Assembly: GCA_026125795.1 (NCBI GenBank)
Contig: JAHCKM010000002.1
Location: forward strand, 620,001 to 684,000
Direction of reading: 5' to 3'
From: Burkholderiaceae bacterium
GTDB taxonomy: Bacteria > Pseudomonadota > Gammaproteobacteria > Burkholderiales > Burkholderiaceae_C
Length of the DNA: 64,000 nt
The position numbers and the translations under genes are program-made. Shown here piece after piece: positions 11,517 through 29,286 of this stretch; within the stretch, counting starts at the first letter, position 1, and each line of letters begins with the position of its first letter. The notes beneath the pieces were generated by a model. It saw nothing but the letters and a program-made list of their open reading frames with translations, did no database searches and was not told where the DNA came from.

Positions 11517-11819
11517 TCAGACCGCCCGATTCAGCAGCCGGTTGTTCATCGAGCGGATCATCGGCCGCACCTGCTCCAGGTAGCGCTGCCACGCGGGGTT
11601 CGCCGCCAGGGCGTCACGCCGCCGCCGCCGCTCCTCGAAACTCGGATACTCCCACAGGCTCACGATCGCGTTGAGCTCGCCCACCTCGGTGGTGAAGTAG
11701 CCGATCAGACCCCGCAGCGTCTGCCGCTGGATCTCCAGCCCATCGCGGTACAAGACCTCGAGGTAGTCGTTCACCGTGACGGTGGCGTGCAGCACGTAGC
11801 AGCGTTCCTCGACGATCAT
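11517..11819 (-). CDS. NIPSNAP-family small protein
   Basis: A 100-residue protein with the ferredoxin-like NIPSNAP pattern: ERCYVLHATVTVNDYLEVL, GYFTTEVGELNAIVSLWEYPSFEERRRRRDAL and AWQRYLEQVRPMI. ATG 11819 has GAGG about 8 bases upstream; ATG 11825 is also in frame. Its promoter region is shared with the divergent SDR at 11912, which starts the catabolic block, so coregulation is plausible. Biochemical role unknown; NIPSNAP proteins often sit in aromatic or terpenoid degradation clusters. Confidence 0.8.
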   Translation of the reverse strand: MIVEERCYVLHATVTVNDYLEVLYRDGLEIQRQTLRGLIGYFTTEVGELNAIVSLWEYPSFEERRRRRDALAANPAWQRYLEQVRPMIRSMNNRLLNRAV

Positions 11820-11831
11820 GAGCATGGCCTC

Positions 11832-11860
11832 GCGACATCACCGATGGAGATGCGTATTAT
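11832..11860 (+). promoter_or_regulatory. Candidate sigma70 promoter for the SDR at 11912
   Basis: GCGACA (11832-11837; 4 of 6 to TTGACA) is 17 bases before TATTAT (11855-11860; 5 of 6 to TATAAT). The predicted transcription start falls on the inverted repeat at 11867-11883. Confidence 0.45.
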
Positions 11861-11866
11861 CGGATG

Positions 11867-11883
11867 GCGTTTGCGAGAAACGC
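11867..11883. promoter_or_regulatory. Candidate operator, inverted repeat GCGTTT-N5-AAACGC
   Basis: The 17-base GCGTTTGCGAGAAACGC has perfect 6-bp arms. It covers the expected start of transcription of the SDR gene, a place where a repressor would act. A further TCTCATATCGAGA lies at about 11893-11905. Confidence 0.45.
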
Positions 11884-11911
11884 ACAGACCGTCTCATATC
11901 GAGAGAACTGC

Positions 11912-12760
11912 ATGCAAGCGCCTCACAACCCCCACGCCGCTGCAGCGGCGGACCTGCGCCTCGACGGGCGTGTCGCCGTCGTCACCGGCGCGGCCGGCGG
12001 CATCGCGCGCGGCATCGTCGAACGGCTGGCGCTGCTGGGCGCCGATCTGGTCCTGCTCGACATCAACGACGCGGGCCTGGCGGCGCTGCCGCAGTGGCTG
12101 GCCGTGCACGGCCGGCGTGTGCTGGCGCTGCATTGCGACGTGTCGGATCCGCACCAGGTCGGCGCCGCCGCCGCGCGCGTGGCGCAGGCGTTCGACGGCT
12201 GCGACTTCCTGGTGAACAACGCGGGCGTGCTGCCGGCCGCGAGCTCCATCGAGGACCAAAGCCTGCAGGTCTGGGACGACTCGATGGCCGTCAACGTGCG
12301 CGGCGTGTTCCTCTGCACGCAGACCTTTGGCCGCTTCATGCTGCGGCGCCGCAGCGGCAGTATCGTGAACATCGCATCGATCGGCGCGCAGGCGCCCAAT
12401 GCGTCGCCGCCGTACGCGGCCGCCAAGGCGGCGGTGATCGCGTTCACGCGCCAGACCGCGGTGGAGTGGGGGCCGGAAGGCGTGCGGGCGAATTCGGTCA
12501 GCCCGGGCTTCGTGCGTACGCCGCTGTCGGAGCACATGTATGCCACGACCGACATGGCGCAGGTGCGCAGCGCGATGGTGCCGGTGCGGCGTCTCGGCAT
12601 GCCGATGGACATCGCCGGCGTCGTCGCCTTCCTGCTCAGCGATGCGGCCGCCTATGTGAACGGCCAGGACATGCAGGTCGACGGCGGTTTCATGCAGTCC
12701 ACGCTGATGCGCGCCCAGCCACCGCGGGGGCAGCACGGCGGCACCGGTCGCGGTCGTTGA
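11912..12760 (+). CDS. Short-chain dehydrogenase/reductase
   Basis: A 282-residue classical SDR. The cofactor motif is TGAAGGIA, near the start of the fold, with one residue off the usual TGxxxGIG ending. DLVLLDIND ends in Asp, indicating NAD(H) preference; NNAGVLP follows and the catalytic Tyr-x3-Lys is YAAAKAA. The tail VNGQDMQVDGGFMQSTLM resembles that of the SDR at 19019 (VNGQEIVVDGGFLHTSLM), so the two are probably paralogues acting on related substrates. ATG 11912 follows GAGAGAACTGC. It faces the IclR regulator gene convergently, 9 bases apart. Alcohol/ketone substrate unknown. Confidence 0.85.
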   Translation: MQAPHNPHAAAAADLRLDGRVAVVTGAAGGIARGIVERLALLGADLVLLDINDAGLAALPQWLAVHGRRVLALHCDVSDPHQVGAAAARVAQAFDGCDFLVNNAGVLPAASSIEDQSLQVWDDSMAVNVRGVFLCTQTFGRFMLRRRSGSIVNIASIGAQAPNASPPYAAAKAAVIAFTRQTAVEWGPEGVRANSVSPGFVRTPLSEHMYATTDMAQVRSAMVPVRRLGMPMDIAGVVAFLLSDAAAYVNGQDMQVDGGFMQSTLMRAQPPRGQHGGTGRGR

Positions 12761-12769
12761 CCGGCCGCA

Positions 12770-13702
12770 TCACGTCGAAGCGCGGCGGGCTGCCGCACGT
12801 CGTGCGGCAGCCGTGTCCGATGCACGGCGCGGGCTGTTTCTTTTGGGCCGTGCCGTGGCCAGGCTCTTGGGCGCGCGCGATGCCACCGCGCGCAGCGGCT
12901 TGTGCAGCCGGCTCGTGATCTCCGCCGCCGCACGCTTGGCCATCTCACCCAGCGGCGGCAAGTCGGCCTCGCCAACCTCCTTGCGCAGCTTCACCAGGCA
13001 CAGGCTCGCCGTGACGTCGCCTGAAGGCAAGAAGATCGGCGCCGAGATGCCGACCAGCGTCTTGTCGATGTCGCTCGCAACCGCGTAGCCGCGTTTGCTC
13101 ACCACGCGCATGTTCTCGCGGAACTCCAGCCAGTTGTGCCCCAGGCCGGCGCTGGCGATCTCGTGCGGATGGTGCAGGAACAGGCGCTGCAGCTGCTGCA
13201 TGCGCAGATTGGCCAGGATGATGCGCGACGGCGCGCCAAGAAAGAGCGGAAACGGCCGGCCACGGTCGAAGCTGCTCTTGATGCGCGGATCGGTCTTGTC
13301 GACATAGATGCTGAGCACGCGCAGCCCGTAGAACCGGCACAACAACTGGTCACCGTCGAGCGCAGGCCGGATCCTCTCCATCACCTCCGGCGCGACCTGC
13401 AGCAGCGGATCCGCCAGCCGGATCTGCCGGTCCATTTCAATGAAGCGCGGCCCCAGCGAGTAGGCCCCTCCGCCGTCGGGGGTGAGGAAGCCGGTCTCCA
13501 CCAGTGCGCGCAGGTAGCGGTACATCGTGGCCCGGGCGACGCCGAGCCGCTCGATCAGCAGATCGGTGGTCCACAGCGGCTGGTCCTCGGTGAACAGGTC
13601 CAGGATGCTCAACACGCGGTCGGTGCTGCTGTCGGCACGCTGACCCGGTCTGGTGGTGACGGTCTTGTTTCCACTGGCCATGACACGCTTTCTCAGGCTC
13701 AT
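12770..13702 (-). CDS. IclR-family transcriptional regulator
   Basis: A 310-residue regulator. The N-terminal winged helix (STDRVLSILDLFTEDQPLWTTDLLIERLGVARATMYRYLRALVETGFL) is followed by an effector domain with RPALDGDQLLCRFYGLRVL and GYAVASDIDKTLVGISAPIF, the usual IclR ligand domain. ATG 13702 is chosen because GAGGG is 5 bases upstream, and because a 25-bp palindrome (13720-13744) would otherwise be inside the coding region; ATG 13783 is in frame but unlikely. The C-terminal 45 residues are Ala/Arg-rich and atypical. Divergent from the catabolic block, so probably its local regulator, responding to a pathway intermediate. Confidence 0.85.
   Translation of the reverse strand: MSLRKRVMASGNKTVTTRPGQRADSSTDRVLSILDLFTEDQPLWTTDLLIERLGVARATMYRYLRALVETGFLTPDGGGAYSLGPRFIEMDRQIRLADPLLQVAPEVMERIRPALDGDQLLCRFYGLRVLSIYVDKTDPRIKSSFDRGRPFPLFLGAPSRIILANLRMQQLQRLFLHHPHEIASAGLGHNWLEFRENMRVVSKRGYAVASDIDKTLVGISAPIFLPSGDVTASLCLVKLRKEVGEADLPPLGEMAKRAAAEITSRLHKPLRAVASRAPKSLATARPKRNSPRRASDTAAARRAAARRAST
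12788..12812. repeat. 25-bp perfect palindrome in the 3' end of the IclR gene
   Basis: GGCTGCCGCACG (12788-12799) and CGTGCGGCAGCC (12801-12812) pair perfectly about a single T. It could form a strong hairpin in transcripts from the convergent SDR gene (stop at 12760), and it encodes part of the odd Ala/Arg-rich tail of the regulator. No immediate U-run follows, so termination would be imperfect. Confidence 0.6.
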
Positions 13703-13719
13703 GGCCCTCAAAAGGCCGA

Positions 13720-13744
13720 CGAGGTCTCGAACTTCGAGACCTCG
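13720..13744. promoter_or_regulatory. Probable IclR operator, 25-bp perfect palindrome
   Basis: CGAGGTCTCGAA (13720-13731) and TTCGAGACCTCG (13733-13744) are exact reverse complements around one C. It sits 18-42 bases before the chosen start of the divergent IclR gene, an expected position for autoregulation. The core TCTCGAACTTCGAGA resembles a 15-base site at 24878-24892 in front of the tannase-family gene. Confidence 0.65.
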
Positions 13745-13781
13745 CATGTTAGCAATGGGCCTCGATAGAGTGGGGATATTC

Positions 13782-13796
13782 ATGAGCTCTTCTCAT
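13782..13796. promoter_or_regulatory. Inverted repeat upstream of the catabolic operon promoter
   Basis: ATGAGCTCTTCTCAT has 5-bp perfect arms (ATGAG/CTCAT) and lies 11 bases upstream of the -35 box at 13808. An activator or IclR site is possible; the sequence differs from the 25-bp palindrome. Confidence 0.35.
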
Positions 13797-13807
13797 AAGA
13801 AACTCGA

Positions 13808-13836
13808 TTGACAGCGTCTCCATGCGACACTAGATT
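13808..13836 (+). promoter_or_regulatory. Strong sigma70 promoter of the catabolic operon
   Basis: TTGACA (13808-13813, perfect -35) is separated by 17 bases from TAGATT (13831-13836, 4 of 6). The start of transcription should be near 13843. This leaves no room for a ribosome site before ATG 13848 and therefore favours ATG 13866 as the first start codon. Confidence 0.65.
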
Positions 13837-13865
13837 GCAAGTCGCGCATGGTGAGACTGAGCAAC

Positions 13866-14708
13866 ATGGCGGAACCGCATCCCCCGCTGATCGTCGAGCA
13901 TGACGCCGGGCGCACCCTGGTGTTCGATTCGGCGACGCACGTCGAGGCCTACGTCGCGCGCACGCCGTGCAGCGGCGACGTGATCGTTGCCGCCTCCTAT
14001 GCCGGGGTTCTGTGTGCCCGCATGGTCATGCTCGCCAGGCCGCGCGCCGCGATCGGGCTCGACTGCGGCATCGGCAAGGATGGCGCCGGAGTTGCCGGCC
14101 TCTGGTACTACGAGGCGCTCGACGTGCCTGCCGCCGCCGTCGACTCGGGCACCGCCGAGATGGGCAATGGCCAGGACATGTTCTCCCACGGCGTGCTGAG
14201 CCGCGTCAACGAGTGTGCGCAGCGACTGGGCGTGGAGGCCGGACTTCCGGTGCAGCAGGCAGCGGACGCGCTGCTGAGCGGATCGCGCAAGCCGGCACGA
14301 TTCGATCCCGCTCGACGGCTCGTGGTCCAGGAGGGTCCGCAAGGGCGTTGCATCGTGTGCACCGACTCGATCGCCTTCGCGCTGCCGGAGGACCGCGAGC
14401 GCAACGTGCTGTGCACCGCCGGCCATACCGGGCGCAGCGTGGTCGAGTACTTTCGCCGCTTTCGCCCATGGGGCTTCATCTGCTCCGACGGCGGCATCGG
14501 CAAGAACCGCAGCGGCATCGCCGCGCTCGAGGTGGTCGACGCCGACGGCATCGCCGGCGCAGCCGTGGATGCGATGACGGCGCGCATGGGCGACGGCCGG
14601 AGCACGTATTTCGATGGCGTGATCAGCGCGGTCAATCGCACCGCGCATGCAAAGGGCGTGCGCGTCGGCCAGTCGGCTCGCGAGGCCGCGGCGCTGTTGT
14701 TGAACTGA
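13866..14708 (+). CDS. Protein of unrecognised family made of two homologous halves
   Basis: About 280 residues, no signal peptide, no membrane segment, not assignable to a known family by eye. The two halves align with each other: half one has GLDCGIGKDGAGVAGLWYYE, AAAVDSGTAEMGNGQDMFS and GVLSRVNECAQRLGV; half two has CSDGGIGKNRSGIAALEVV, AAVDAMTARMGDGRSTYFD and GVISAVNRTAHAKGV. Each begins with a beta-strand of cysteine- and glycine-containing residues. The conserved D/G-GIGK, MG(N/D)G and S.VN positions are presumably structural or ligand-binding. ATG 13866 is chosen because of the promoter at 13808-13836 and GGTGAG 10 bases before; ATG 13848 is in frame. First gene of the catabolic operon, 16 bases before a cupin gene. 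Confidence 0.75.
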   Translation: MAEPHPPLIVEHDAGRTLVFDSATHVEAYVARTPCSGDVIVAASYAGVLCARMVMLARPRAAIGLDCGIGKDGAGVAGLWYYEALDVPAAAVDSGTAEMGNGQDMFSHGVLSRVNECAQRLGVEAGLPVQQAADALLSGSRKPARFDPARRLVVQEGPQGRCIVCTDSIAFALPEDRERNVLCTAGHTGRSVVEYFRRFRPWGFICSDGGIGKNRSGIAALEVVDADGIAGAAVDAMTARMGDGRSTYFDGVISAVNRTAHAKGVRVGQSAREAAALLLN

Positions 14709-14724
14709 AAAGCGAGGAACACGC

Positions 14725-15123
14725 ATGGCCCGTACCCCCCACCTTCGCGGAGAGGAGACGCTTTCCGAGCTCGCCTCCCGTTATGTTTCCGTCGATCAGC
14801 TGCCGTGGAAGCCCACGCCCACACCCGGCATTGACATGAAGATCCTGCTGGAAGACAAGGACAGCGGCTTGCTGACGGCGCTGTTCCGCTGGCAGCCCGG
14901 CACCGCGCTCGACCTGCATGAACACGTGGAGATCGAGCAGACCTACGTGCTGGAGGGCAGCATCGTCGACGACGAAGGCGAGGTGACCGCCGGCAACTAC
15001 GTGTGGCGCCCCAAGGGCAATCAGCACCTGGCGCGCTCGCCGGACGGCGCGCTGGTCATCTCGTTCTTCCTCAAGCCGAACAAGTTCCTCACCGGCAAGG
15101 CGGCGGGTCAGGAGCTGCGTTGA
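14725..15123 (+). CDS. Cupin-domain protein (acetylacetone dioxygenase/ChrR-like)
   Basis: A 132-residue single-cupin protein. The metal motif is visible as LDLHEHVEIEQTYVLEG (two His, then Glu) followed by AGNYVWRPKGNQH, whose final His completes a 3-His/1-Glu site. Small Fe(II) cupins of this type cleave beta-diketones or serve as metal-dependent isomerases. Lies inside the catabolic operon between the two-half protein and the flavoprotein, so a C-C cleaving or isomerising step in the pathway is a reasonable guess. Confidence 0.82.
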   Translation: MARTPHLRGEETLSELASRYVSVDQLPWKPTPTPGIDMKILLEDKDSGLLTALFRWQPGTALDLHEHVEIEQTYVLEGSIVDDEGEVTAGNYVWRPKGNQHLARSPDGALVISFFLKPNKFLTGKAAGQELR

Positions 15124-15146
15124 CAGCCGTGCCCGAGTCTCACGGG

Positions 15147-16883
15147 ATGGCCACGACCGCGTGCGACGTGATCGTGGTCGGCTCGGGCGCCGGCGGTCTG
15201 GCCGCGGCGGTCACGGCCGCGAAAGGCGGCCTGAAGGTCATCGTGCTGGAGAAGGAGCCGCTGTACGGCGGCACCACCGCGCGCTCGGGCGGCGTGTTGT
15301 GGATCCCGTGCAACCCGAAGTCGCAGGAGCTCGGCATCGACGACAGCGTGGAGCAGGCGCGCCGCTACCTGCGGCACGAAGCCGCGGCGCACTACGACGC
15401 CGCGCGCGTCGACGCCTTCCTAGACAACGGTCCGCGCATGGTGCGCTTCTTCGAGAGCGAGACCGCGGTGCGTTTCGTCGCGGTGCCCGAGTTTCCCGAC
15501 TACCACCCCGACGTTCCCGGCGCCAGGGCCGGCGGGCGCTCGATCGTTGCCGCGCCGTATGACGCGGGCGCGTTGGGCCCGGACGTGAAGCGCCTGCGTC
15601 CGCCGCTGCGCGAGATCACGTTCGTCGGGATGATGTTCAACGCCAACCAGGAGATCGCGCACTTCTTCAACGTCACGCGCTCGCTGTCGTCGGCCGCGTA
15701 CGTCGTGCGCCGGCTGTTGCAGCACGCGCTGGAGATGCTTCGCCACGGGCGCGCGCAGCGTCTGACCAATGGCAACGCGCTGGTCGCACGCCTGGCGCGC
15801 AGCGCGCTCGATGCCGGCGTCGAGGTTCGAACTGGAGCGCGCGTCGAGAGGCTGCTGCTGGAAGGCGGCCGCATCCGCGGGGTTGAGTGTGCGGTGGGCG
15901 GGCGCTCGGAGTCCGTGCACGCGCGCCACGGCGTCGTGCTGGCAACGGGCGGCTTTCCGCAGGACCCTGAGTTGCGCACGCGCCTGTTTGCGCATGCACC
16001 CCATGTCTCGCCGGCGCCACCCGGCAACACAGGCGACGGCTGGCGCCTCGCGCAGCAGGCCGGCGGACAGACCGTGGCTTCGTTGCCGAACAACGCGGCC
16101 TGGATCCCGGTGTCGATCGTGCCGCGCCGGCGAGAGCCGCACGGCGTCTTTCCGCATCTGCTCGATCGCTACAAGCCCGGCGTCATCGCGGTGGACCCGA
16201 ACGGCAGGCGCTTCACCAACGAAGCCAATTCCTACCACGACGTGGGTCAGGCCATGCAGGCGGCGTGCGCGAACCACTCGGAGACGTTTGCCTGGCTGGT
16301 GGCGGACCATCGGGCCATCGGCCGCTACGGTCTCGGCCACGTGAAGCCGTTTCCCCTGCCGTTGTGGCCGCATCTGCGTTCGGGCTATTTGAAGCGCGGC
16401 CGCACGCCGGCCCAACTCGCCGCGGCGATCGGCGTCGACGCGACGACGTTCACGCAAACGATCCAAGCGTTCAACCGGGCCGCGCAGGACGGACTGGATC
16501 CTGCTTTCGGCAAGGGATCGACGGCCTACAACCGCTACCTCGGTGACCAGAACCATCGCCCCAATCCCTGCGTGGCGCCGCTCGATCGAGCGCCGTACTA
16601 CGCGGTGAAGCTGCTGATGGGTGACCTGGGCACCTTCGCCGGCATCCGCACCGACGACCGCGCTCGTGTGGTCGGTGCGGACGGGGTGCCCGTTGCGGGC
16701 CTGTATGCGGTGGGCAACGACGCCCTCAGCGTGATGGGCGGCAGCTACCCCGGTGGCGGCATCACGTTGGGGCCCGCGATGACCTTCGGCTACATCGCCG
16801 GGCGCCATCTCGTCGCGCAGGCGCATCTGCCGCAATCGTCCGAGCCACGTCGTCAATACCAGATGGAAGGAGACATCGCATGA
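15147..16883 (+). CDS. FAD-dependent dehydrogenase, 3-ketosteroid-delta1-dehydrogenase-like
   Basis: About 578 residues of the fumarate reductase/KstD flavoprotein superfamily. The N-terminal VIVVGSGAGGLAAAVTAAKGG is the FAD Rossmann motif, continued by TTARSGGVLWIP. The C-terminal GLYAVGNDALSVMGGSYPGG and ITLGPAMTFGYIAGRH closely match the KstD pattern, in which the Tyr of SYPG is part of the active site. Family chemistry: introduces a double bond next to a ring ketone. ATG 15147 is used; GTG 15129 is in frame. It ends in a 4-base ATGA overlap with the Bug receptor gene. Ring-ketone substrate inferred. Confidence 0.85.
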   Translation: MATTACDVIVVGSGAGGLAAAVTAAKGGLKVIVLEKEPLYGGTTARSGGVLWIPCNPKSQELGIDDSVEQARRYLRHEAAAHYDAARVDAFLDNGPRMVRFFESETAVRFVAVPEFPDYHPDVPGARAGGRSIVAAPYDAGALGPDVKRLRPPLREITFVGMMFNANQEIAHFFNVTRSLSSAAYVVRRLLQHALEMLRHGRAQRLTNGNALVARLARSALDAGVEVRTGARVERLLLEGGRIRGVECAVGGRSESVHARHGVVLATGGFPQDPELRTRLFAHAPHVSPAPPGNTGDGWRLAQQAGGQTVASLPNNAAWIPVSIVPRRREPHGVFPHLLDRYKPGVIAVDPNGRRFTNEANSYHDVGQAMQAACANHSETFAWLVADHRAIGRYGLGHVKPFPLPLWPHLRSGYLKRGRTPAQLAAAIGVDATTFTQTIQAFNRAAQDGLDPAFGKGSTAYNRYLGDQNHRPNPCVAPLDRAPYYAVKLLMGDLGTFAGIRTDDRARVVGADGVPVAGLYAVGNDALSVMGGSYPGGGITLGPAMTFGYIAGRHLVAQAHLPQSSEPRRQYQMEGDIA

Positions 16884-17854
16884 GAGCCCATCGTTGGATT
16901 CAAGCGGTCACGTTGTTCGCGGCCGCTGCGCTTGCGGCTTTCACCGCCGCAGCCGACTCGTTTCCGAGCAAGCCGATACGTATCCTCGTGGCCTATGCAG
17001 CTGGCGGTGCCACCGATAGCCTGGCGCGTCACCTGAGCGTGCCGGCCGGCGAGATGCTCGGCCAGTCGGTGGTGGTGGACAACAAGCCCGGCGGGGCCAC
17101 GGTGATCGCGGCCCAGGCACTGATCCAGTCGGCGCCCGACGGCTACACGATGGCGTTCTTCGATCCGTCGACGGTGGCGATGAACCAGTACCTGTTCAAG
17201 AAGCCGCCGTACGACCCCGCGAAGGCCATCGCGCCGGTGACGATGCTGACCAAGATCCCGTTCGGCATCATGGTGCGCACCGACCACCCGGTGAAGTCGC
17301 TCGGCGAATTCGTGGCGCAGGTCAAGGCCAAGACGGCCGTGACCTATGGGCACTCGGGCGCCGGCAACCCGGTGCACTTGGCGATGGAGCGTTTCCTGGC
17401 CCAGGCCGGCTTGCAGATGACGCACGTGCCGTACCGCGGCGGCGCGCCGGCGCTGGCCGACCTGATCGGCGGTCAGGTGGGCTATCTGATGATGGACATC
17501 CCGAGCGCCATGCCGTTCATCAAGGACGGCAAGGTGCGCGTGCTGGCGGTCACGTCGGCCAAGCGCACCGACATGCTGCCCGACGTGCCGACGATCGCCG
17601 AGTTGGGCTACGCCGGCTATGAGGCAAGCAGCTGGTTCGGTGCCTTCGTGCCGGCCGGCACGCCGCCCGACGTGATCGCCAAGCTGAACAAGACCTTGCG
17701 CGACGCGGTGGCCAAGCCGGACGTCACGGCCTGGATCAAGGGCCGGACGCTCGAGCCCGCCACATCGACCCCGGGAGAACTGGCGGCGGTGATCAAGAGC
17801 GACGAAGTGAAGTACGCTCAAATCATTAAGCAACTTAACTTCTCGCTGGACTGA
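16880..17854 (+). CDS. Bug-family (TctC) periplasmic solute receptor
   Basis: A 324-residue exported protein with signal peptide (basic RAHRW, hydrophobic AAAALAAFTAAA, cleavage near ADS). FPSKPIRILVAYAAGGATD and QSVVVDNKPGGATVIAAQ are the Bug-family carboxylate-binding motifs; YRGGAPALADLIGGQV and EVPTIAE-like DVPTIAELGY follow. Bug proteins bind carboxylates or amino acids for tripartite transporters, but no TctA/TctB membrane genes are nearby, so it is an orphan receptor. Start overlaps the flavoprotein stop. Inside this operon it probably senses or delivers the pathway substrate. Confidence 0.9.
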   Translation: MRAHRWIQAVTLFAAAALAAFTAAADSFPSKPIRILVAYAAGGATDSLARHLSVPAGEMLGQSVVVDNKPGGATVIAAQALIQSAPDGYTMAFFDPSTVAMNQYLFKKPPYDPAKAIAPVTMLTKIPFGIMVRTDHPVKSLGEFVAQVKAKTAVTYGHSGAGNPVHLAMERFLAQAGLQMTHVPYRGGAPALADLIGGQVGYLMMDIPSAMPFIKDGKVRVLAVTSAKRTDMLPDVPTIAELGYAGYEASSWFGAFVPAGTPPDVIAKLNKTLRDAVAKPDVTAWIKGRTLEPATSTPGELAAVIKSDEVKYAQIIKQLNFSLD

Positions 17855-17879
17855 TCCCTGTACGGCGGCCCCAGAATCC

Positions 17880-19022
17880 ATGAAGGACCTTTTCGATCGC
17901 TACGACTTCCACGGCCATCGTCTCGCCAACCGAATCGTGATGGCGCCGATGACGCGATCGCGCGCGGCCGACGACGGCACGCCGCGGCCGATGATGGTGG
18001 AGTACTACGCGCAGCGTTCGGAAGCGGGGCTGATCGTTTCGGAAGGGACCAACATCTCGGCGCAGGCCCAGGGCTTCTTGTACACGCCAGGCATCTTCAC
18101 GGAAGCGCACATCGAAGCATGGCGGCGCGTGACGGCCGCGGTGCACGCTCAGGGCAGCACGTTCTTCCTTCAGCTCTGGCACGTTGGCCGCATCGGGCAC
18201 CCGGACAACATGGAAGCGGGCCTGCACCCGGTGGCGCCGAGCGCACTGGCACATCCGCGCACGATCGTCACGCGCAGCGGCCCGCAGCCCACGGTGGTGC
18301 CGCGCGCGATGAACCTCGACGAGGTGAAGCAGGCGATCGCGCAGTACGCCACGGCGGCGCGCAACGCCATCCGGGCCGGTTGCGACGGTGTGGAGATCCA
18401 CGCCGCCAACGGCTACCTGCCGAGCCAGTTCCTGCACTCGAGCTCCAACCTGCGAGCCGATCGCTACGGCGGCGGCATCGCCGATCGCATCCGTTTCCTG
18501 GTGGAGGTGGCCCAGGCCTGTGCCGCCGCGATCGGTGCGCATCGGGTCGGCGTGCGGATCACGCCGTTCAGCGCATTCAATGGAGCGACCAGCCCTGACG
18601 ACGAAGCCGGCCTGTACGACCAGCTGCTTGCGGCTCTCGAGGACCTCGAACTGGGCTATCTGCATGCGGTCACTGCAGAGGTCTCGGGCAACGTCACCCT
18701 CGCCGAGGCCGAGCGCCAGAAGGTCGCCGACGTGCTGGGTTTCGTCCGGCCCCGTTGGCGGCGCACTTTGATCGCCGCGGGCAACTTCGATCTTGAGCGG
18801 GCCCGGGCAACCATCCGCGACGGGCGAGCCGACCTCGTCGCGTTCGGTCGCGACTTCATTTCCAACCCCGACCTCGTCATCCGCCTGCGCCACGGTTATC
18901 CGCTGGCGCGGCGCGATCCCGCCGAGTGGTATGGCGCCGGCGCCGAAGGCTATACCGACTACCCGCGCTGGGGCGTCACCCCTTCGGCAGGTGCCGCGGC
19001 GCAACTCGAGAGCGCGGAGTGA
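17880..19022 (+). CDS. Old Yellow Enzyme-family alkene (ene) reductase
   Basis: A 380-residue FMN-dependent TIM-barrel enzyme that reduces activated C=C bonds using NAD(P)H. Motifs in order: NRIVMAPMTRSRA at the N-terminus, QLWHVGRIGHP, GCDGVEIHAANGYLPSQFL (the conserved substrate-binding His/Asn pair in HAAN), NLRADRYGG, and the C-terminal GRADLVAFGRDFISNPDL. All standard NemA/OYE positions are intact. ATG 17880 follows the Bug gene by 25 bases, and the stop overlaps the next SDR gene by 4 bases (GTGA). Together with the KstD-like enzyme this suggests redox chemistry on a cyclic enone. Confidence 0.92.
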   Translation: MKDLFDRYDFHGHRLANRIVMAPMTRSRAADDGTPRPMMVEYYAQRSEAGLIVSEGTNISAQAQGFLYTPGIFTEAHIEAWRRVTAAVHAQGSTFFLQLWHVGRIGHPDNMEAGLHPVAPSALAHPRTIVTRSGPQPTVVPRAMNLDEVKQAIAQYATAARNAIRAGCDGVEIHAANGYLPSQFLHSSSNLRADRYGGGIADRIRFLVEVAQACAAAIGAHRVGVRITPFSAFNGATSPDDEAGLYDQLLAALEDLELGYLHAVTAEVSGNVTLAEAERQKVADVLGFVRPRWRRTLIAAGNFDLERARATIRDGRADLVAFGRDFISNPDLVIRLRHGYPLARRDPAEWYGAGAEGYTDYPRWGVTPSAGAAAQLESAE

Positions 19023-19795: not shown

Positions 19796-20556
19796 ACGCA
19801 GCGGCTCCTCAACTGCTGCGTCAGCAGATCGCGCTGGTCACCGGCGGCGGCGGTGGCATTGGGACGGCGATCGCGCGTGGCCTGGCGGACCATGGCGCCG
19901 CCGTGGTCGTCGTCGGCACCACGCCGAACAAGCTGCAGCACAGCGTCGATGACATCGCGCTGCGCGGCGGGCGCGCGTGGGCCTATACGCTCGACGTGGC
20001 CGACGGTGCGGCGTGTCAGACGCTCGCCAGGCAGGTCGGGCGCGACGTCGGGCCGGTGTCGATCCTGGTCAACAACGCAGGCGTCATCCGCTATGCGACG
20101 CTGGAAGACCCAGAGGTCGACCCGGCGTGGTCCGAAGTCATCGGGACCAACCTGACCGGGCCGTTCAACATGGTGCGCGCCTTTCTCGAGCCGCTCAAGG
20201 CGACCCGCGGCACGGTCATCAACGTGGGTTCGATCGCCGGCTTCATCTACACCAACAACACCGTGGCCTACACCGCATCGAAAGGCGGCCTGCACGCCCT
20301 GACAGCGGCGATGGCGCGCGAACTGGGGGTGCACGGCATCCGCGTCAATGCGGTCGCGCCGGGCGCGGTGAACACGTCGATGTCGCCGTCGGCCGGCGAT
20401 GCGAACCGGCTCGCCAGCCTGCTCAAGCGCGTGCCGCTCGGGCGCATCGGTCAACCCGACGACATCGCCGGACCGGTCGTCTTCCTGGCGTCGGCGATGT
20501 CGGCCTATGTCACCGGCGCCACGCTGGTCGTCGACGGCGGCTATCTGACCAACTGA
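19792..20556 (+). CDS. Short-chain dehydrogenase/reductase (FabG-like)
   Basis: A 254-residue SDR with TGGGGGIG, VVVVGTTPNK (no acidic residue, NADP preference likely), NNAGVIRY, GSIAGF and catalytic YTASKGG; C-terminal VTGATLVVDGGYLTN. GTG 19792 overlaps the previous stop by 4 bases. More FabG-like than the two other SDRs of the operon, so a hydroxyacyl or ring-hydroxyl step is possible. 17 bases separate it from the thiolase-like gene. Confidence 0.86.
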   Translation: MNAAAPQLLRQQIALVTGGGGGIGTAIARGLADHGAAVVVVGTTPNKLQHSVDDIALRGGRAWAYTLDVADGAACQTLARQVGRDVGPVSILVNNAGVIRYATLEDPEVDPAWSEVIGTNLTGPFNMVRAFLEPLKATRGTVINVGSIAGFIYTNNTVAYTASKGGLHALTAAMARELGVHGIRVNAVAPGAVNTSMSPSAGDANRLASLLKRVPLGRIGQPDDIAGPVVFLASAMSAYVTGATLVVDGGYLTN

Positions 20557-20573
20557 GTTGAAGCGAGACCCGG

Positions 20574-21737
20574 ATGGGAACCCGAGCCAAGGCCTGCATC
20601 GTCGGTGCCTTCGAGCACCCGACACGCAAGGCCGAGGACAAGTCGCTCGCGCAGCTGCATGCCGAGGTGGCCAAGGGAGCACTGGACGATGCGGGCCTGT
20701 CGAAGCACGACGTCGACGGCTACTTCTGCGACACCGAAGCGCCGGGCCTGGGGCCGCTGTCGATGGTGGACTACCTCGGGCTGAAGGTCCGCCACATGGA
20801 CAACACCGACACCGGCGGCTCGGCATACCTGCTGCATGTGGCCCACGCGGCGCAGGCGATTTCCGCGGGGAAATGCCGCGTCGCATTGATCACGCTCGCG
20901 GGCCGGCCCCGCTCGGCCGGCCAGTCGGCCGAGCCGCGCGTCGACTACAACGTGCCCGACATGCCCTTCGAGATGCCTTATGGACCGACGGTGGTGAACA
21001 CCTACGGCATGTGCGCGATGCGCCACATGCACGAGTTTGGCACCACGTCCGAACAGCTGGCGTGGATCAAGGTCGCGGCATCGCACCATGCGCAACACAA
21101 CCCGCATGCGACGCTGCGCAAGCCGGTCACGGTCGACGAAGTGCTGGCCTCGCCGATGATCTCCGATCCGCTGCATCGGCTCGACTGTTGCGTGGTCAGC
21201 GACGGCGGTGGCGCGCTGGTGGTTGCCAGCACCGACGTGGCGCGCGAGCTGAAGCGGCCCGCGGTGCGCGTGATCGGCAGCGGCGAGGCTGCCAAGCACC
21301 CATCCGGCGGACGCGTCGACCTGAGCTTCTCGGCCGCTGCATGGGCGGGTCGGCAGGCCTTCGATGAAGCCGGCGTGGAGCCGTCGGACATCCAGTACGC
21401 GTCGATCTACGACAGCTTCACGATCACGGTGCTGATGCAACTCGAGGACCTGGGCTTCTGCGCCAAGGGGCAGGGCGGTCGTTTCGTCGCCGACGCCAAC
21501 TTGATCTCGGGCGTGGGCCGGTTGCCGTTCAACACCGACGGCGGTGGCCTGTGCAACAACCATCCGAGCAATCGCGGCGGCATGACCAAGGTGATCGAGG
21601 CCGTGCGCCAGCTGCGCGGCGAGGCCCACCCTGCGGTTCAGGTGAAGGGCTGCGCCCTGGCTCTGGCCAGCGGCATGGGCGGCTGGATGGGCAGCCGCCA
21701 TGGCAGCGGCGTGCTGATCCTCGAGAGGACGCACTGA
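20574..21737 (+). CDS. Thiolase-like protein (SCP-x/Ltp2 type), probable retro-aldolase subunit
   Basis: A 387-residue thiolase fold with a non-classical active site. Where biosynthetic and degradative thiolases have the nucleophilic Cys (xCxSG), this protein reads NTDTGGSAYLL, with Thr and Gly, so it lacks that cysteine. C-terminal NTDGGGLCNNHPSNRGG keeps the His-containing loop, and ASIYDSFTITV holds a Tyr like that of Ltp2 aldolases. Ltp2-type proteins partner with DUF35 proteins for retro-aldol cleavage of acyl-CoA side chains in steroid catabolism. The next gene, overlapping by one base, is exactly such a DUF35 protein. Cleavage chemistry is therefore inferred as retro-aldol, not thiolytic. 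Confidence 0.82.
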   Translation: MGTRAKACIVGAFEHPTRKAEDKSLAQLHAEVAKGALDDAGLSKHDVDGYFCDTEAPGLGPLSMVDYLGLKVRHMDNTDTGGSAYLLHVAHAAQAISAGKCRVALITLAGRPRSAGQSAEPRVDYNVPDMPFEMPYGPTVVNTYGMCAMRHMHEFGTTSEQLAWIKVAASHHAQHNPHATLRKPVTVDEVLASPMISDPLHRLDCCVVSDGGGALVVASTDVARELKRPAVRVIGSGEAAKHPSGGRVDLSFSAAAWAGRQAFDEAGVEPSDIQYASIYDSFTITVLMQLEDLGFCAKGQGGRFVADANLISGVGRLPFNTDGGGLCNNHPSNRGGMTKVIEAVRQLRGEAHPAVQVKGCALALASGMGGWMGSRHGSGVLILERTH

Positions 21738-22126
21738 TGGGCACCGAACGTGTCTTCCCGTGCCCGGAGGCCAACGTGGAGAACCGGGCGTACTGGGATG
21801 CGGCTGCCGAGGGCCGTTTGCTTTTGAAGCATTGCGCCGCATGCGGCCACAGTCATTTTTATCCTCGTGCAATCTGTCCGCACTGTCTCAGCGATGCCAC
21901 CGAGTGGCGCGACAGCCCCGGCATGGGGACCATTTATTCGTTCAGCGTGATGCGGCGTGTGGCGCAACCGTATGCCATCGCCTACGTCGCGCTCGACGAG
22001 GGCGTGACGATGATGAGCAACATCATCGACTGCGATCTCGACGCACTGGCGATCGGCCAGCGCGTCAAGGTGGCCTTTCGGCCGAGCGACGGCCCGCTCG
22101 CGATTCCGGTGTTTGTTCCGGCCTGA
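21737..22126 (+). CDS. DUF35 zinc-ribbon/OB-fold protein, partner of the thiolase-like protein
   Basis: A 129-residue protein. The N-terminal helix (NRAYWDAAAEGRLLLKHC) precedes a four-cysteine rubredoxin-like ribbon, CAACGHSHFYPRAICPHC, then an OB-fold (GTIYSFSVMRR, AIAYVALDEGVTMMSNI, GQRVKVAF). This is the standard DUF35 acyl-CoA-binding architecture. Start ATG 21737 shares its A with the previous stop (TGATG), so the two subunits are translationally coupled, as expected for a stoichiometric complex. Confidence 0.9.
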   Translation: MGTERVFPCPEANVENRAYWDAAAEGRLLLKHCAACGHSHFYPRAICPHCLSDATEWRDSPGMGTIYSFSVMRRVAQPYAIAYVALDEGVTMMSNIIDCDLDALAIGQRVKVAFRPSDGPLAIPVFVPA

Positions 22127-22131
22127 CTGTC

Positions 22132-23751
22132 GTGCACGCCGATCACGCCGCGCCACTGCGACGCCGTGAATTGCACTTTGGCAACCGCGTCGTGTGGTGC
22201 TTTGGCGACCGCATGCGTTGCGTCTACAGCGCGCTGCGCGGCGCCGTGCAGCAACACGGCGACCGCACGGCACTGGTGTTCGGCGAAGGGTCGTGGACCT
22301 ACGCGCAGGTGGAGGCTGAGGTGGGGCGCATCGCCGCGGGCTTGCGTTTGCTGGGCATCACGGCCGGTGATCGTATCGCGATGTGGGTGCGAAACCGGCC
22401 CGAGTTCGTCTTCATCTTCTTCGCGATCCAGCGGCTGCGCGCCGTTGCGGTGCCGGTGGACGTGCGGCTGCAGGCAGCGGAGGTTTCGCATGTGCTCGCC
22501 GACTCGGGTGCTCGTGTGCTCCTCCACGACGAGGAGCTGGCGGGCCGACTGCCGGTTGCGGGCGTGAACGCGCCGCACATGGTGCCGGTCGCGGTGCCGG
22601 AGCCGAAGGCGGGCGTGCTGTTCGCGCACGTGTCGGATCACAGCGCCCCGGAGCAGCAAGCGGCCGCGAGCGAGGACGACGTGGCCATCATCCTGTACAC
22701 CTCCGGCACCACCGGCAAGCCCAAGGGCGCGGCAATCACGCATTTCAACGTTGCGCACTCGGTGCTGCACCATGCCGGCAACCTTGGCCTCACCGCGGAC
22801 GATCGCTCACTGATCGCGCTGCCATTGAGCCATGTCACGGGGCTGCTGTGCGGCGTGATCGCTCCGTTCAACACGGGCGGCACGTTGATCCTTCTGCCGA
22901 ACTTCAAGGCGGCGGAGTTCCTGCGCACCGCCGCGGCCGCGCGCATGACCTACACGATCATGGTGCCGGCGATGTACCACCTGTGCCTTCGCGAGGCGGA
23001 CTTCGGCGCCCTCGATCTCTCGGCCTGGCGTCTCGGCCACTTTGGCGGCGCACCGATGCCGCAGGCCACGATCGACGCGCTCGCGCGCCGCCTGCCCGGT
23101 CTGCAACTGGTCAACGGGTACGGCGCAACCGAGCTCTGTTCGCCCGCCACGATGTGGCCCCTTGGTGAACCGCGCGTGCCGCTCGATTCGGTGGGCCGTG
23201 TGATGCCGTGCGCCGAGATCGTGGTCGTCGATCCGGAGACCGGCATTGAAGTGCCGAGCCAGCGCGCCGGTGAGTTGTGGATCCGCGGCCCGATGGTCAT
23301 CAAGGAGTACTGGAACGATCCGGCGGCAACGGCCGCGGGCATTGTCGACGGCTATTGGCGCTCGGGCGACCTCGGCAGCATCGACGCCGATGGCTGGGTC
23401 TACGTGCACGACCGGCTCAAGGACCTGATCAACCGCGGCGGATACAAGGTCTACAGCGCCGAGGTCGAGGCCTGCCTGCTGGAGTTTCCGGGCATCGTCG
23501 AGGCGGCCGTGGTCGCCAAGCGCGATCCCGTGCTGGGTGAACGGGTGCACGCGTTCGTCAGCGCACCGCAGCCGGTGAGCCCTTGCGAGCTGTCTGCCTT
23601 CTGCGCCGAGCGCCTTGCCGACTACAAGGTGCCGGAGGGCTGGACGATCGGATCCGATCCGCTGCCGCGCACGCACACCGGCAAGGTCGACAAGAAGGAT
23701 CTCAGGCTGCGCGCAGCCGCATGCCGACCCCTCATCGGAGCATCATCATGA
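22132..23751 (+). CDS. Acyl-CoA ligase (AMP-binding, ANL superfamily)
   Basis: A 539-residue ligase that activates a carboxylic acid with ATP and CoA. Motifs: AIILYTSGTTGKPKGA (P-loop-like A3), LVNGYGATELCSP (A5), YWRSGDLGSIDADGWVYVHDR (A7/A8) and GGYKVYSAEVEA, ending with the catalytic lysine region PLPRTHTGKVDKKDL. All core motifs are intact. Start GTG 22132 lies 5 bases after the DUF35 gene; the long frame upstream overlaps coding DNA. Stop overlaps the next SDR start (ATGA). Substrate presumably the carboxylate product of the esterase or ring cleavage steps. Confidence 0.9.
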   Translation: MHADHAAPLRRRELHFGNRVVWCFGDRMRCVYSALRGAVQQHGDRTALVFGEGSWTYAQVEAEVGRIAAGLRLLGITAGDRIAMWVRNRPEFVFIFFAIQRLRAVAVPVDVRLQAAEVSHVLADSGARVLLHDEELAGRLPVAGVNAPHMVPVAVPEPKAGVLFAHVSDHSAPEQQAAASEDDVAIILYTSGTTGKPKGAAITHFNVAHSVLHHAGNLGLTADDRSLIALPLSHVTGLLCGVIAPFNTGGTLILLPNFKAAEFLRTAAAARMTYTIMVPAMYHLCLREADFGALDLSAWRLGHFGGAPMPQATIDALARRLPGLQLVNGYGATELCSPATMWPLGEPRVPLDSVGRVMPCAEIVVVDPETGIEVPSQRAGELWIRGPMVIKEYWNDPAATAAGIVDGYWRSGDLGSIDADGWVYVHDRLKDLINRGGYKVYSAEVEACLLEFPGIVEAAVVAKRDPVLGERVHAFVSAPQPVSPCELSAFCAERLADYKVPEGWTIGSDPLPRTHTGKVDKKDLRLRAAACRPLIGASS

Positions 23752-24677
23752 CGATTCGATTCGACGGCCGCGTAGCCGTGGTGACCGGCGCCGGTGCCGG
23801 CCTGGGACGCAGCCACGCGCTGGCGCTGGCCGCGCGCGGTGCAAAGGTGGTGGTCAACGACCCCGCGATGTCACGTCGTCCCGGGGCTGGAAGCCAGCGG
23901 GCGGCCGACGACGCGGTGGCGGAGATCCGCGCGGCCGGCGGCGAAGCGATCGCCAACCATGACTCGATCGCCGAGGTGGCGGGCGCGCAGCGCCTGATCG
24001 ACCAGGCGGTGTCGCAGTACGGCCGCATCGACATCCTGGTCAACAACGCCGGCGTGCTGCGCGACAAGACGCTGGCCAAGATGGACATGGCCGACTGGGA
24101 CCTCGTGCTCAAGGTGCACCTGTCCGGCACCGCCTACTGCACGCGGGCAGCGTGGCCCGAGATGCAGAAGAACCGGTACGGCCGCATCGTGTTCACCACG
24201 TCCAATGCGGGCCTGTACGGCTCATTCGGGCAGGCGAACTATTCGGCGGCGAAGATGGGCATGCTCGGCCTGATGAATACGCTGAAGCAAGAAGGGCTGA
24301 AGCACAACATCCTCGTGAACACGGTCGCGCCGGTGGCGGCGACGAACATGACCGAAGGCATCCTGCCGGCGCAGATCGCGCCGCACTTTCGTCCGGAGCA
24401 TGCGTCCGCGGCGGTCATGGTGATGTGCAGCGAGACCTTCCCGCACAGCGGACAGGTGTGCTCGGCCGCGGCGGGGCACTATGCGCTGGTCTACGTCTCC
24501 TGCAGCATCGGCCGGCAGTTCGATCCGTCGTCGATCGTTTCACCCGAGGACCTGTGGGCGGCCTGGGAGGGCGTGGCCAATCGCAATGGCGTGCGCACCT
24601 TTCCCTCGGCGGCGTCGGAGACCGAGGCGATCGTGGAGTCCATCGGGCAGCTCCGGCGCGGCGCGGCCGCTCCATAA
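23748..24677 (+). CDS. SDR of the HSD17B4/multifunctional enzyme 2 type (3-hydroxyacyl-CoA dehydrogenase-like)
   Basis: A 309-residue protein: FDGRVAVVTGAGAGLGRSHAL, KVVVNDPAM, NNAGVLRDKTLAKM and YSAAKMGMLG. The DLVLKVHLSGTAYCTRAAW and RIVFTTSNAGLYGSFGQANYS segments are signatures of the dehydrogenase domain of peroxisomal multifunctional enzyme and steroid beta-oxidation enzymes, distinct from FabG. The hydratase and SCP2 domains of the eukaryotic enzyme are absent. Last gene of the 13.8-24.7 kb run; ATGA overlap with the ligase. Likely oxidises a hydroxyacyl-CoA before cleavage. Confidence 0.86.
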   Translation: MTIRFDGRVAVVTGAGAGLGRSHALALAARGAKVVVNDPAMSRRPGAGSQRAADDAVAEIRAAGGEAIANHDSIAEVAGAQRLIDQAVSQYGRIDILVNNAGVLRDKTLAKMDMADWDLVLKVHLSGTAYCTRAAWPEMQKNRYGRIVFTTSNAGLYGSFGQANYSAAKMGMLGLMNTLKQEGLKHNILVNTVAPVAATNMTEGILPAQIAPHFRPEHASAAVMVMCSETFPHSGQVCSAAAGHYALVYVSCSIGRQFDPSSIVSPEDLWAAWEGVANRNGVRTFPSAASETEAIVESIGQLRRGAAAP

Positions 24678-24877
24678 CGCTGTCCGCCGCGCGCCGCCGG
24701 CCGCCGGCGCAGGCAGGCGTTGAACACACTTCAGATCGTTGCGCAGCGGGCGTCCTCGCGGGACGGCGTCGCCTTTGCGTCAGCGAGTGAACGTCAGCAG
24801 GCGAGCTTGACGTTTCGTAGGGGTATCACCCATGTACAAAGCATCAATGCATCTCGAAACTCAGGACATTCATTGAA

Positions 24878-24892
24878 TCTCGAATTATGAGA
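24878..24892. promoter_or_regulatory. Possible second IclR-type operator
   Basis: TCTCGAATTATGAGA shares TCTC-N7-GAGA and the left half TCTCGAA with the core of the palindrome at 13720-13744 (TCTCGAACTTCGAGA). A TCTCGAA half-site also occurs at 24852-24858. It lies just before the ribosome site of the tannase-family gene. Confidence 0.45.
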
Positions 24893-24910
24893 TTGAATAG
24901 GAGAAGCGAA

Positions 24911-26527
24911 TTGAGGCCGAACCGATCCCTTCTCGTTTCCGCGTTGTTCGCCGGTCTGACCAGTGCATCGGCACATGCGTCCACCTATTGCGAGTCGATG
25001 GCGGCGGTGAACCTGCCCGACACAACCATCACGCTGGCGCAGCTGATTCCGGCTGGCACGTTCCAGCCACCCACCGGGGCAGCGCAGCAGAACCTGCCGG
25101 AGTTCTGTCGCATCGCCGGGCGGATCCAGAACCACCCCACCTCTCGGATCATGTTCGAGGTGTGGTTGCCGACCCAGACCGCCAACCAGCGGCTCGTGCA
25201 GGTGGGCAACGGCGGATTCGCCGGCAACATCCAGTACGGCGCGATGGCCACGCGACTGCGCGAGGGCTACGCGACCGCCAGCACCGACGATGGCACGTCC
25301 GCGGCGCCCGGCGTACCGGCCAGCGAACGCCTGACCTTCCTGGGTGACTTCGAGCGGCTCTACGACTTCAAGGGCCGTGCGGTCACGCTGACGGCGGTCA
25401 ACGCGAAGATGCTGTTTCGCACCTTCTACGGCCTCGCACCCGCGTATAGCTACTTCACCGGCTGCTCCAGCGGAGGCCTGGAGGGGCTGGCTGTCGTGCA
25501 ACGGCTCGGCGAGGCGTTTGACGGTGTGTCCGCCGGCAGCCCGGCCAACAACTCGGCCGGACTGTTCACACAGGCGATCTGGACTTTTCAGCACTACCAG
25601 AAGATCTCGACCAAGCTGCAGCTGGTGCACGACGCCGCTGTGGCCGCGTGCGACACGCTGGGCGACAGCGTCAGCGACGGCGTGATCGGCGACCCGCAGC
25701 GCTGCAGGTTCGATCCGCGCAAGCTGCTGTGCAAGGCCGCTGAAGGCCCCGAGTGCCTCACGGCCGAGCAGGTCGAGGCCGTGCGCAAGATCTACGAAGG
25801 TCCGGTGAATCCGCGCAACGACCGGAAGACGGGCGAACAGTACGCCCCCGGCATGCCGCGCGGCAGCGAGCTGACCTGGGGCGCCTCGCAAGGCCAGGCG
25901 CTGGGCGCGTCGCAGCCCTGGTACGGCATGGTGCTGCACAACACGCTGACCTTCGATCTCACGACGTTCAACTTCGACACCGACGTCGACCGCGCGCTGA
26001 GACTGACGCTGCCCTATGGCGCGCAGGTCACGAATCCTGACCTCTCCGCCTTCAGGAACCACGGTGCCAAGCTGTTGCTCTGGGCCGGCTGGAACGACCC
26101 GCTGTGGTCCCAGCAAAACATCGTCGACTACTACGAGGAAGTCGTGGCCCACAACACCAAGACCCATGGCCATTGGCGCTGGGACGCACGGCCGCCGGCC
26201 AGCCCGATCGACCGGACGCGGCGCTTTGCGCGCCTGTTCATGGGTCCCGGGATGGGTCACTGCGGAGGCGGCGACGGACCCAACGTGTTCGACACCTTTG
26301 CGCCGCTCGTGCAGTGGGTGGAGGCAGGGACCGCGCCGGATCAGATCATCGCCACGAAGTTCATCAACAACCAGCCGGCTCAGGGGATCGCGCAGACGAG
26401 GCCGCTGTGTGCCTATCCCGACGTGGCACGCTGGAACGGTACGGGGGATCCCAACAGCGCGGACAACTTCATCTGCACACGGCATCCGCAACGGGATCAC
26501 CACCACGATGGCCACGGCCGGCACTGA
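24911..26527 (+). CDS. Secreted tannase/feruloyl esterase-family hydrolase
   Basis: About 538 residues, exported (signal RPNRSLLVSALFAGLTSASAHA-type). The family CS-D-HC arrangement is complete: nucleophile in GCSSGG (Ser186, preceded by Cys), acid in WNDPLWS (Asp396), base in GMGHCGGG (His450, followed by Cys), so the two cysteines can bridge the triad. The family releases phenolic acids from esters. The start is TTG 24911, with AGGAG 7 bases upstream; ATG 24887 is in frame but lacks a ribosome site and lies inside the putative operator. His-rich C-terminus (HHHDGHGRH). Probably extracellular first step of the adjacent catabolic pathway. Confidence 0.85.
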   Translation: MRPNRSLLVSALFAGLTSASAHASTYCESMAAVNLPDTTITLAQLIPAGTFQPPTGAAQQNLPEFCRIAGRIQNHPTSRIMFEVWLPTQTANQRLVQVGNGGFAGNIQYGAMATRLREGYATASTDDGTSAAPGVPASERLTFLGDFERLYDFKGRAVTLTAVNAKMLFRTFYGLAPAYSYFTGCSSGGLEGLAVVQRLGEAFDGVSAGSPANNSAGLFTQAIWTFQHYQKISTKLQLVHDAAVAACDTLGDSVSDGVIGDPQRCRFDPRKLLCKAAEGPECLTAEQVEAVRKIYEGPVNPRNDRKTGEQYAPGMPRGSELTWGASQGQALGASQPWYGMVLHNTLTFDLTTFNFDTDVDRALRLTLPYGAQVTNPDLSAFRNHGAKLLLWAGWNDPLWSQQNIVDYYEEVVAHNTKTHGHWRWDARPPASPIDRTRRFARLFMGPGMGHCGGGDGPNVFDTFAPLVQWVEAGTAPDQIIATKFINNQPAQGIAQTRPLCAYPDVARWNGTGDPNSADNFICTRHPQRDHHHDGHGRH

Positions 26528-29130: not shown

Positions 29131-29181
29131 GGCGATTCACGGCGGCGTCGATGGTCGGCGTCGCGCCGCTTTCCTAGCATG

Positions 29182-29258: not shown

Positions 29259-29286
29259 TTCAATTCACAACGGGAGGACTTTCACG

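Follow-up and report, generated by a model that had tools for sequence, protein, structure and literature searches.

A run of eleven genes at positions 13866–24677 of a 64,000-nucleotide stretch of DNA from Burkholderiaceae bacterium (contig JAHCKM010000002.1, positions 620,001 to 684,000; here called the window) may constitute a catabolic operon for an alicyclic (non-aromatic ring) carboxylic acid. In the pathway that we propose, the side chain of the acid would be activated with coenzyme A (CoA) and cut by retro-aldol cleavage, and the resulting cyclic ketone would pass to a KstD-like enzyme, an Old Yellow Enzyme (OYE) and SDR enzymes encoded in the same run. We hold this reading tentatively, with somewhat less than even confidence; it rests on the gene content, the operon-like packing of the genes, a gene order that is kept in three genomes, and the retention of catalytic motifs. 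The genome to which the window belongs measures 6.57 Mb and is 98.9% complete.

Open reading frames (ORFs), coding bias and family searches place all eleven genes on the + strand in one unbroken run. Five of its ten junctions are overlaps (four of 4 bases and one of 1 base), and the remaining five are gaps of 5, 16, 17, 23 and 25 bases. An initial annotation of this DNA had described ten same-strand genes between 13.87 and 24.68 kb, joined mostly by overlaps of 1–4 bases; the one-strand run is borne out, but the genes number eleven and the description of the junctions fits only half of them. Upstream, the run adjoins a divergent gene for an IclR-family regulator (iclR, 12770..13783, − strand; PF09339/PF01614), and the gap between iclR and the first gene of the run contains a sigma-70-like promoter match on the + strand (TTGACA-17-TAGATT, 13808..13836; 10 of 12). 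Promoter-like matches in the region number 2 compared with 1.0 expected, so this match is a weak one. Judged by the spacing together with the weak promoter-like match, the run may be transcribed as an operon.

The first gene, dup (13866..14708), encodes an uncharacterised 280-aa protein made of two homologous halves that are 35% identical. It is followed by genes for a Cupin_7 protein (14725..15123; PF12973, 78.3 bits), a KstD-like flavin adenine dinucleotide (FAD) dehydrogenase of the NCBIfam PRK06134 subfamily (kstD, 15147..16883), a Bug/TctC solute-binding receptor (bug, 16880..17854; PF03401, 244.2 bits) with what appears by eye to be a signal-peptide-like N-terminus, an OYE or ene reductase (oye, 17880..19022; PF00724, 267.3 bits), and two SDR dehydrogenases with the motifs YGVSK (sdr2, 19019..19795) and YTASK (sdr3, 19792..20556). 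The distal part encodes an Ltp-type thiolase-like protein (20574..21737), its DUF35 partner (21737..22126), an AMP-forming acyl-CoA ligase (22132..23751; PF00501, 317 bits; the GTG start is inferred from comparison with the orthologous loci described below) and sdr4 (23748..24677), an SDR resembling 3-hydroxyacyl-CoA dehydrogenases of the MFE-2/HSD17B4 type. All proteins of the block except that of dup belong to known families, and the searches upheld the earlier assignments as KstD-like, ene reductase, SDR, cupin, ligase, HSD17B4-like SDR and DUF35 proteins.

In the proposed pathway, the Bug receptor would bind the acid and the ligase would form its CoA ester. An acyl-CoA dehydrogenase (ACAD) and a MaoC hydratase, which are clustered in the orthologous loci and would here presumably be supplied from elsewhere, could then produce a beta-hydroxyacyl-CoA. 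Retro-aldol cleavage of this ester by the Ltp-type protein and its DUF35 partner would yield a cyclic ketone (or aldehyde) along with acetyl-CoA or propionyl-CoA. A cyclic ketone arising in this way would fit as the kind of substrate that a KstD-like enzyme needs. The latter may introduce a double bond beside the ring ketone, with sdr2 and sdr3 interconverting ring alcohols and ketones, and the OYE, the cupin and sdr4 would act on later ring intermediates.

The cluster in related genomes

The thiolase-like protein served as the query for the comparison of loci, and the best 80 of at least 587 loci of named genomes were kept, so that the counts refer to close relatives only. Two of these 80 loci have the same operon order, one (L048) in Hydrogenophaga sp. 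IBVHS1 and the other (L047) in a Burkholderiales metagenome-assembled genome (MAG; genome G399, with loci L047 and L190/L191), which answers the suggestion of the initial annotation that the gene order be sought in other genomes. Hydrogenophaga sp. IBVHS1 was assembled from freshwater-lake metagenomes, according to the accessible text of PMC5571423. The shared order is cupin, kstD, bug, oye, sdr2, sdr3, thiolase-like gene, DUF35 gene, ligase gene and sdr4, and the operon proteins of the window are 62–87% identical to those of L048 and L047. The Bug receptor keeps its place in both (63–69% identity), and dup keeps its place in the MAG (79–81% in L190/L047). L048 has no dup; there the cupin gene adjoins nips, a gene for a NIPSNAP-family protein that in the window occupies 11517..11825 on the − strand (PF07978, 74.7 bits). 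The identity of the NIPSNAP-family protein is 60–63% in L048/L190, and that of the IclR regulator is 46% in L190 and 51% over the part held by L048.

Both orthologous loci also carry genes that the window block lacks: bug and oye are separated there by a gene for a SnoaL_4 protein, and sdr3 is separated from the thiolase-like gene by genes for an ACAD and a MaoC protein. Both also end with one further SDR gene. The Pfam domains of the extra genes were determined on the L048 copies, where the MaoC protein has an MFE-2 hydratase-2 N-domain; what we take to be the hydratase-2 motif is found in the MaoC of both loci. The statement that MaoC is missing is therefore correct for the window block and incorrect for the orthologous loci, each of which has one.

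Relatives of the cupin and the OYE occur only in L047 and L048 among the 80 thiolase loci, and kstD matches occur in four, of which those in L094 and L112 are weak (27–28%). A draw of 399 genomes of the family contains 2 with a KstD at the level of orthologues (E ≤ 1e-230), one being the window genome; the 5 further genomes listed for its genus all lack it. At E ≤ 1e-150 there are KstD relatives in 42 of 299 drawn family genomes, with 74% identity in G399 and at most 56% in all others except the window genome itself. The two draws overlap, and the Hydrogenophaga genome is evidently in neither. Among 399 genomes of the order, no other sdr4 match exceeds 57% identity, and no kstD match in the plasmid records reaches 60%. 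The outer neighbours of the cluster, compared by eye, differ among the three genomes. An accessory catabolic module is the most fitting interpretation of a block that is rare and patchy and keeps its order in different surroundings. By these comparisons the cluster is a conserved unit with the Bug receptor as a member; the receptor, which the initial annotation had linked to uptake of a tannase product, stands as part of the system without that link.

The thiolase-like protein and its DUF35 partner

The thiolase-like protein scores 716.5 bits against NF006010 (cut-off 462), which agrees with the family implied by its earlier label of an Ltp2-like thiolase with DUF35. The activity implied by that label fares less well: in an alignment with the archaeal thiolase 7yvy, Gly82 lies in the column of what we take to be the nucleophilic Cys of that enzyme. 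The Gly pair 81–82 and the motifs YDSF and NHP are kept in all of the 80 best relatives, which are above 65% identity. Because Gly occupies the place of the thiolase Cys, the residues give no ground for taking a thiolytic step for granted in this Ltp-like protein.

We take the structure 6ok1 to be TcLtp2, because its Tyr344 matches the numbering in the accessible text of PMC12329534. That text gives as catalytic residues two tyrosines of TcLtp2, the Tyr of YDHF (base) and Tyr344, and, for the Sal aldolase, Tyr302 and Cys304 of the motif YDCY (PMC12329534). In the alignment with 6ok1, Tyr279 of the thiolase-like protein falls on the YDHF Tyr, His330 stands in the place of Tyr344, the Ltp2 acid, and Sal Cys304 has Ser281 of YDSF as its counterpart. 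The DUF35 partner combines a zf-ChsH2 domain (CAAC-x10-CPHC) with an OB fold (OB_ChsH2_C), and its C-x2-C-x10-C-x2-C zinc motif is of the C4 type like that of ChsH2, in contrast to the C3H1 motif of Shy, as both are described in the accessible text of PMC12329534. From these residues we infer that the thiolase-like protein may be an aldolase with a Tyr/His pair. DUF35 was found in 79 of the 80 loci, relatives of MaoC and of the ACAD in 15 each and relatives of the ligase in 12; for 10 of these loci the ORFs were read only by eye. We know of no tested activity for NF006010 proteins.

Several observations weigh against the proposed pathway and its aldolase step. The thiolase-like protein has neither the Tyr344 of Ltp2 nor the Cys304 of Sal. 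Two of its cysteines, 327 and 360, are close to the motifs, the stretch 360–371 includes a Cys in every one of the 80 relatives, and 5 of the 80, though not the window protein, have a Cys at position 83 just after the Gly pair, so that a displaced Cys nucleophile is conceivable. NF006010 proteins also occur in other acyl-CoA contexts. The product of sdr4, with the look of a 3-hydroxyacyl-CoA dehydrogenase, would more naturally supply substrate to a thiolase than to an aldolase. The best matches in the window genome to the ACAD and MaoC of the orthologous loci reach only 51% and 46% identity to the Hydrogenophaga proteins (that of MaoC sits beside a gene for an SDR 40% identical to sdr4), and because no close counterpart of either is present, the side-chain steps are incomplete locally. 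Finally, the order of nips and iclR is swapped: nips lies between iclR and the operon in both relatives, whereas in the window iclR adjoins the operon and nips lies beyond it, together with sdr1, of which there is no counterpart in this place in L190 or L048.

The cysteines and the character of sdr4, whose best solved match is the (3R)-hydroxyacyl-CoA dehydrogenase 2et6 (389.9 bits over two domains) and which is closest to MFE-2 dehydrogenases, would also suit ordinary beta-oxidation with a real thiolytic step. The ligase would then be joined by an ACAD and a hydratase acting in trans, sdr4 would supply the dehydrogenase and the thiolase-like protein with DUF35 would be a thiolase of the BbsAB kind, the ring being reduced and desaturated before or after. 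BbsAB, the benzoylsuccinyl-CoA thiolase of anaerobic toluene degradation, likewise consists of separate thiolase-like and zinc-OB subunits, and there are weak matches of the thiolase-like protein to BbsB (130.2 bits; cut-off 750) and of the DUF35 partner to BbsA (26.5 bits; cut-off 250). However, the Gly in the 7yvy nucleophile column is kept in 80 of 80 relatives, and the protein has Tyr (YDSF) where BbsB has His (HDAF). We consider this explanation rather doubtful, if a serious one.

The retro-aldol reading can be extended to the family. The NF006010/DUF35 pair might represent a third type of acyl-CoA aldolase, with Tyr and His as its residues, widespread in Proteobacteria under the name of thiolase; in the present cluster it would remove the side chain of an alicyclic acid to give a cyclic ketone and so feed a KstD-like desaturase, as a candidate hydroxycycloalkyl-acetyl-CoA lyase. 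This is an unlikely proposal as things stand. If true, cyclic natural acids or naphthenic acids could be degraded by a compact route whose gene block encodes no recognised oxygenase family, except perhaps the cupin.

As a separate observation, the segment of about 740–1060 kb of G000:C1 is dense in ACAD and Ltp-type thiolase matches and is probably a large acyl-CoA catabolic region.

The KstD-like enzyme and the nature of the ring

The KstD-like protein scores 759.1 bits against PRK06134, above the cut-off of 747, and its best solved relative is the 3-oxosteroid 1-dehydrogenase 7p18 (331.2 bits). In KstD1, as described in the accessible text of PMC5348764, Tyr487 and Gly491 form the ketone-activating pair and Tyr119 and Tyr318 are the proton acceptors. 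Alignment with 7p18 places Tyr119, Tyr318, Tyr487 and Gly491 of KstD1 on Tyr119, Tyr363, Tyr534 and Gly538 of the window protein, and all four are invariant in the KstDs of the three clusters and in a second copy encoded by the window genome. These residues lend good support to KstD-like chemistry, the desaturation of a ring beside its ketone group.

The second copy is one of only two strong PRK06134 matches in the window genome (783 and 759 bits; all others score at most 38.4 bits). It lies at about 8.7–11.3 kb of L129 (G000:C2:271500-291400), is 55% identical to the first, and is neighboured by a gene for an SDR 43% identical to sdr3. L129 also holds branched-chain-type ABC transporter genes and, as read by eye, an FAD-monooxygenase-like gene, and this second kstD-SDR cluster is possibly a second ring-ketone pathway.

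The clustering of the second kstD-SDR pair with the FAD-monooxygenase-like gene would be in keeping with a different fate of the ring, in which KstD and SDR enzymes convert a ring ketone to a phenol, in the manner of 4-oxocyclohexanecarboxylate to 4-hydroxybenzoate, and the CoA enzymes act on the side chain. The KstD-like protein of the block does match the NCBIfam models ChcC2 (4-oxocyclohex-2-ene-1-carboxylate dehydrogenase; 583.1 bits) and ChcC1 (391 bits), but both scores are far under the cut-offs of 900 and 1000, and by the family searches the block genes include neither a hydroxylase nor any family that cleaves aromatic rings. Such aromatisation appears improbable.

A steroid substrate is not supported for the KstD-like protein. 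The initial annotation had noted a resemblance to steroid or terpenoid catabolism without its oxygenases, and the whole-genome searches agree. For aerobic 9,10-seco steroid degradation, the KshA oxygenase and an HsaC/TesB-type extradiol dioxygenase were sought: KshA_C (PF19298) has no match in the window genome in a search that none of 14 control genomes passed and that thus had no positive control, and TIGR03213, used as a stand-in for HsaC-type enzymes, gives only a partial match of 25.8 bits (cut-off 366.45). The two other carriers of the cluster each have a partial KshA_C match (29.6 and 23.4 bits; cut-off 23.3), which we do not count as KshA. A steroid pathway, tested over the whole genome by KshA_C, TIGR03213 and the KstD-like family, found no support. 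The retained KstD active site, the match to 7p18, the DUF35/Ltp-like pair and the partial matches in the other carriers would speak for steroid or bile-acid degradation; set against the results for KshA_C and HsaC-type enzymes and the presence of only one other strong KstD match, they leave classical steroid degradation unlikely, and we regard a steroid or bile-acid pathway here as very improbable.

Both metal-ligand motifs that we take to mark cupins are present in the Cupin_7 protein and would make it metal-competent, and the OYE has what is presumably the family pattern, His174/Asn177/Tyr179. The cupin might be a Dke1-like diketone dioxygenase; a search of solved structures at E up to 1 returned ChrR and other cupins, none of them bearing that name.

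No function of dup is known to us. Its protein has a weak resemblance to DUF1805 below the cut-off, its Pfam matches are all sub-threshold, and no solved relative was found at E up to 10. An AlphaFold model built on a two-row alignment has a mean pLDDT of 32.3 and is of no use. The two halves carry the patterns D-x-G-I-G-K and A-x-M-G-x-G. Matches at E ≤ 0.001 occur in 26 of 300 genomes of the order (own genome included), seven of them near full length with 34–40% identity, and the relatives elsewhere (L132–L138) have, by eye, stomatin-like, TRAP-transporter or dehydrogenase-E1-like neighbours.

Neighbouring genes and known systems

Upstream of the operon, sdr1 (11864..12760, + strand), an SDR gene whose product is 52% identical to that of sdr2, lies between nips and iclR, so that nips is here outside iclR. 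Downstream, a gene for a tannase-family esterase with a signal-peptide-like N-terminus (24887..26527, + strand; PF07519, 352.5 bits) starts 209 bases past the last gene of the run and is outside it. Its adjacency, its strand and its N-terminus could suggest, as the initial annotation did, that a secreted tannase frees a carboxylate from its ester and that uptake of this carboxylate by the Bug receptor feeds the pathway. However, the gene is absent from the fetched stretches of both orthologous genomes (L047, L048, L190 and L191), and there are further tannase-family matches elsewhere in the window genome, four of them full-length and one short. With the gap and these results, the tannase was dropped as a component; it probably stands outside the system, and external ester hydrolysis feeding the pathway is highly improbable.

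Beyond the tannase gene, an ORF of 103 aa with coding bias and no Pfam match (26594–26905) precedes a PAS histidine kinase gene, downstream of which are genes for an NMT1-type ABC transporter (substrate-binding protein, permease and ATPase; 29179–32497). Elsewhere in the window, a coding ORF of 630 aa (4998–6890) has no Pfam match at E 1e-8.

Should the proposed pathway be right, the cluster would provide genes and a testable enzyme logic for alicyclic acids, whether terpenoid-derived or naphthenic, and would suggest re-labelling a common family of 'thiolases' as probable aldolases. If the substrate is wrong, what is left is a catabolic unit, rare yet conserved, whose genes are scattered under generic names by family annotation. 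Knowledge of gene clusters for naphthenic acids is called 'quite limited' in the accessible text of PMC5906575. We recognised no published description of the whole gene set in a literature search that was weak on subscription journals.

The closest parallel in enzyme logic is the degradation of steroid side chains, which proceeds by ligase, ACAD, hydratase and aldolase, with cleavage at a ring carbon leaving a ketone (accessible portions of PMC12502768 and PMC12329534). The steroid aldolases Ltp2-ChsH2 and Sal-Shy, with ChsE/ChsH-type steps, share with the present cluster the combination of dehydrogenase, hydratase and aldolase with DUF35, and the catalytic Tyr is kept here. The cluster departs from them in having His330 in the Tyr344 column, Ser281 in YDxF and DUF35 as a separate protein, and from the steroid systems at large in that no KshA- or HsaC-type gene was found in the window genome. 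With the aromatisation of cyclohexanecarboxylate (models ChcB2, ChcC1 and ChcC2) it shares a KstD-like enzyme with SDR partners, all of which score below the curated cut-offs.

The reaction that we propose has a counterpart in degraders of cyclohexaneacetate, in which (1-hydroxycyclohexan-1-yl)acetyl-CoA lyase (EC 4.1.3.35) splits a ring beta-hydroxyacyl-CoA into a cyclic ketone and acetyl-CoA. To our knowledge, this activity has no assigned gene. The number EC 4.1.3.35 appears in a table in the accessible part of PMC4591350, and the retro-aldol step suggested here would be the same reaction. For the ring, the cyclohexanol pathway of Alicycliphilus denitrificans K601 offers a precedent, as the KstD-like Alide2_4318 is proposed there as a cyclohexanone dehydrogenase (accessible text of PMC3692508). 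The match to the ChcC2 model points to a second precedent for a KstD-like enzyme that works on a small ring. The present cluster is like that pathway (Alide2_4318, MhyADH) in assigning a KstD-like flavoprotein to a cyclic ketone, and unlike it in having no molybdenum hydratase family among the block genes and, instead, a CoA ligase, the thiolase-like/DUF35 pair and an OYE. Its novelty is thus that of known families newly assembled for acyl-CoA based ring degradation, and not that of a new kind of system.

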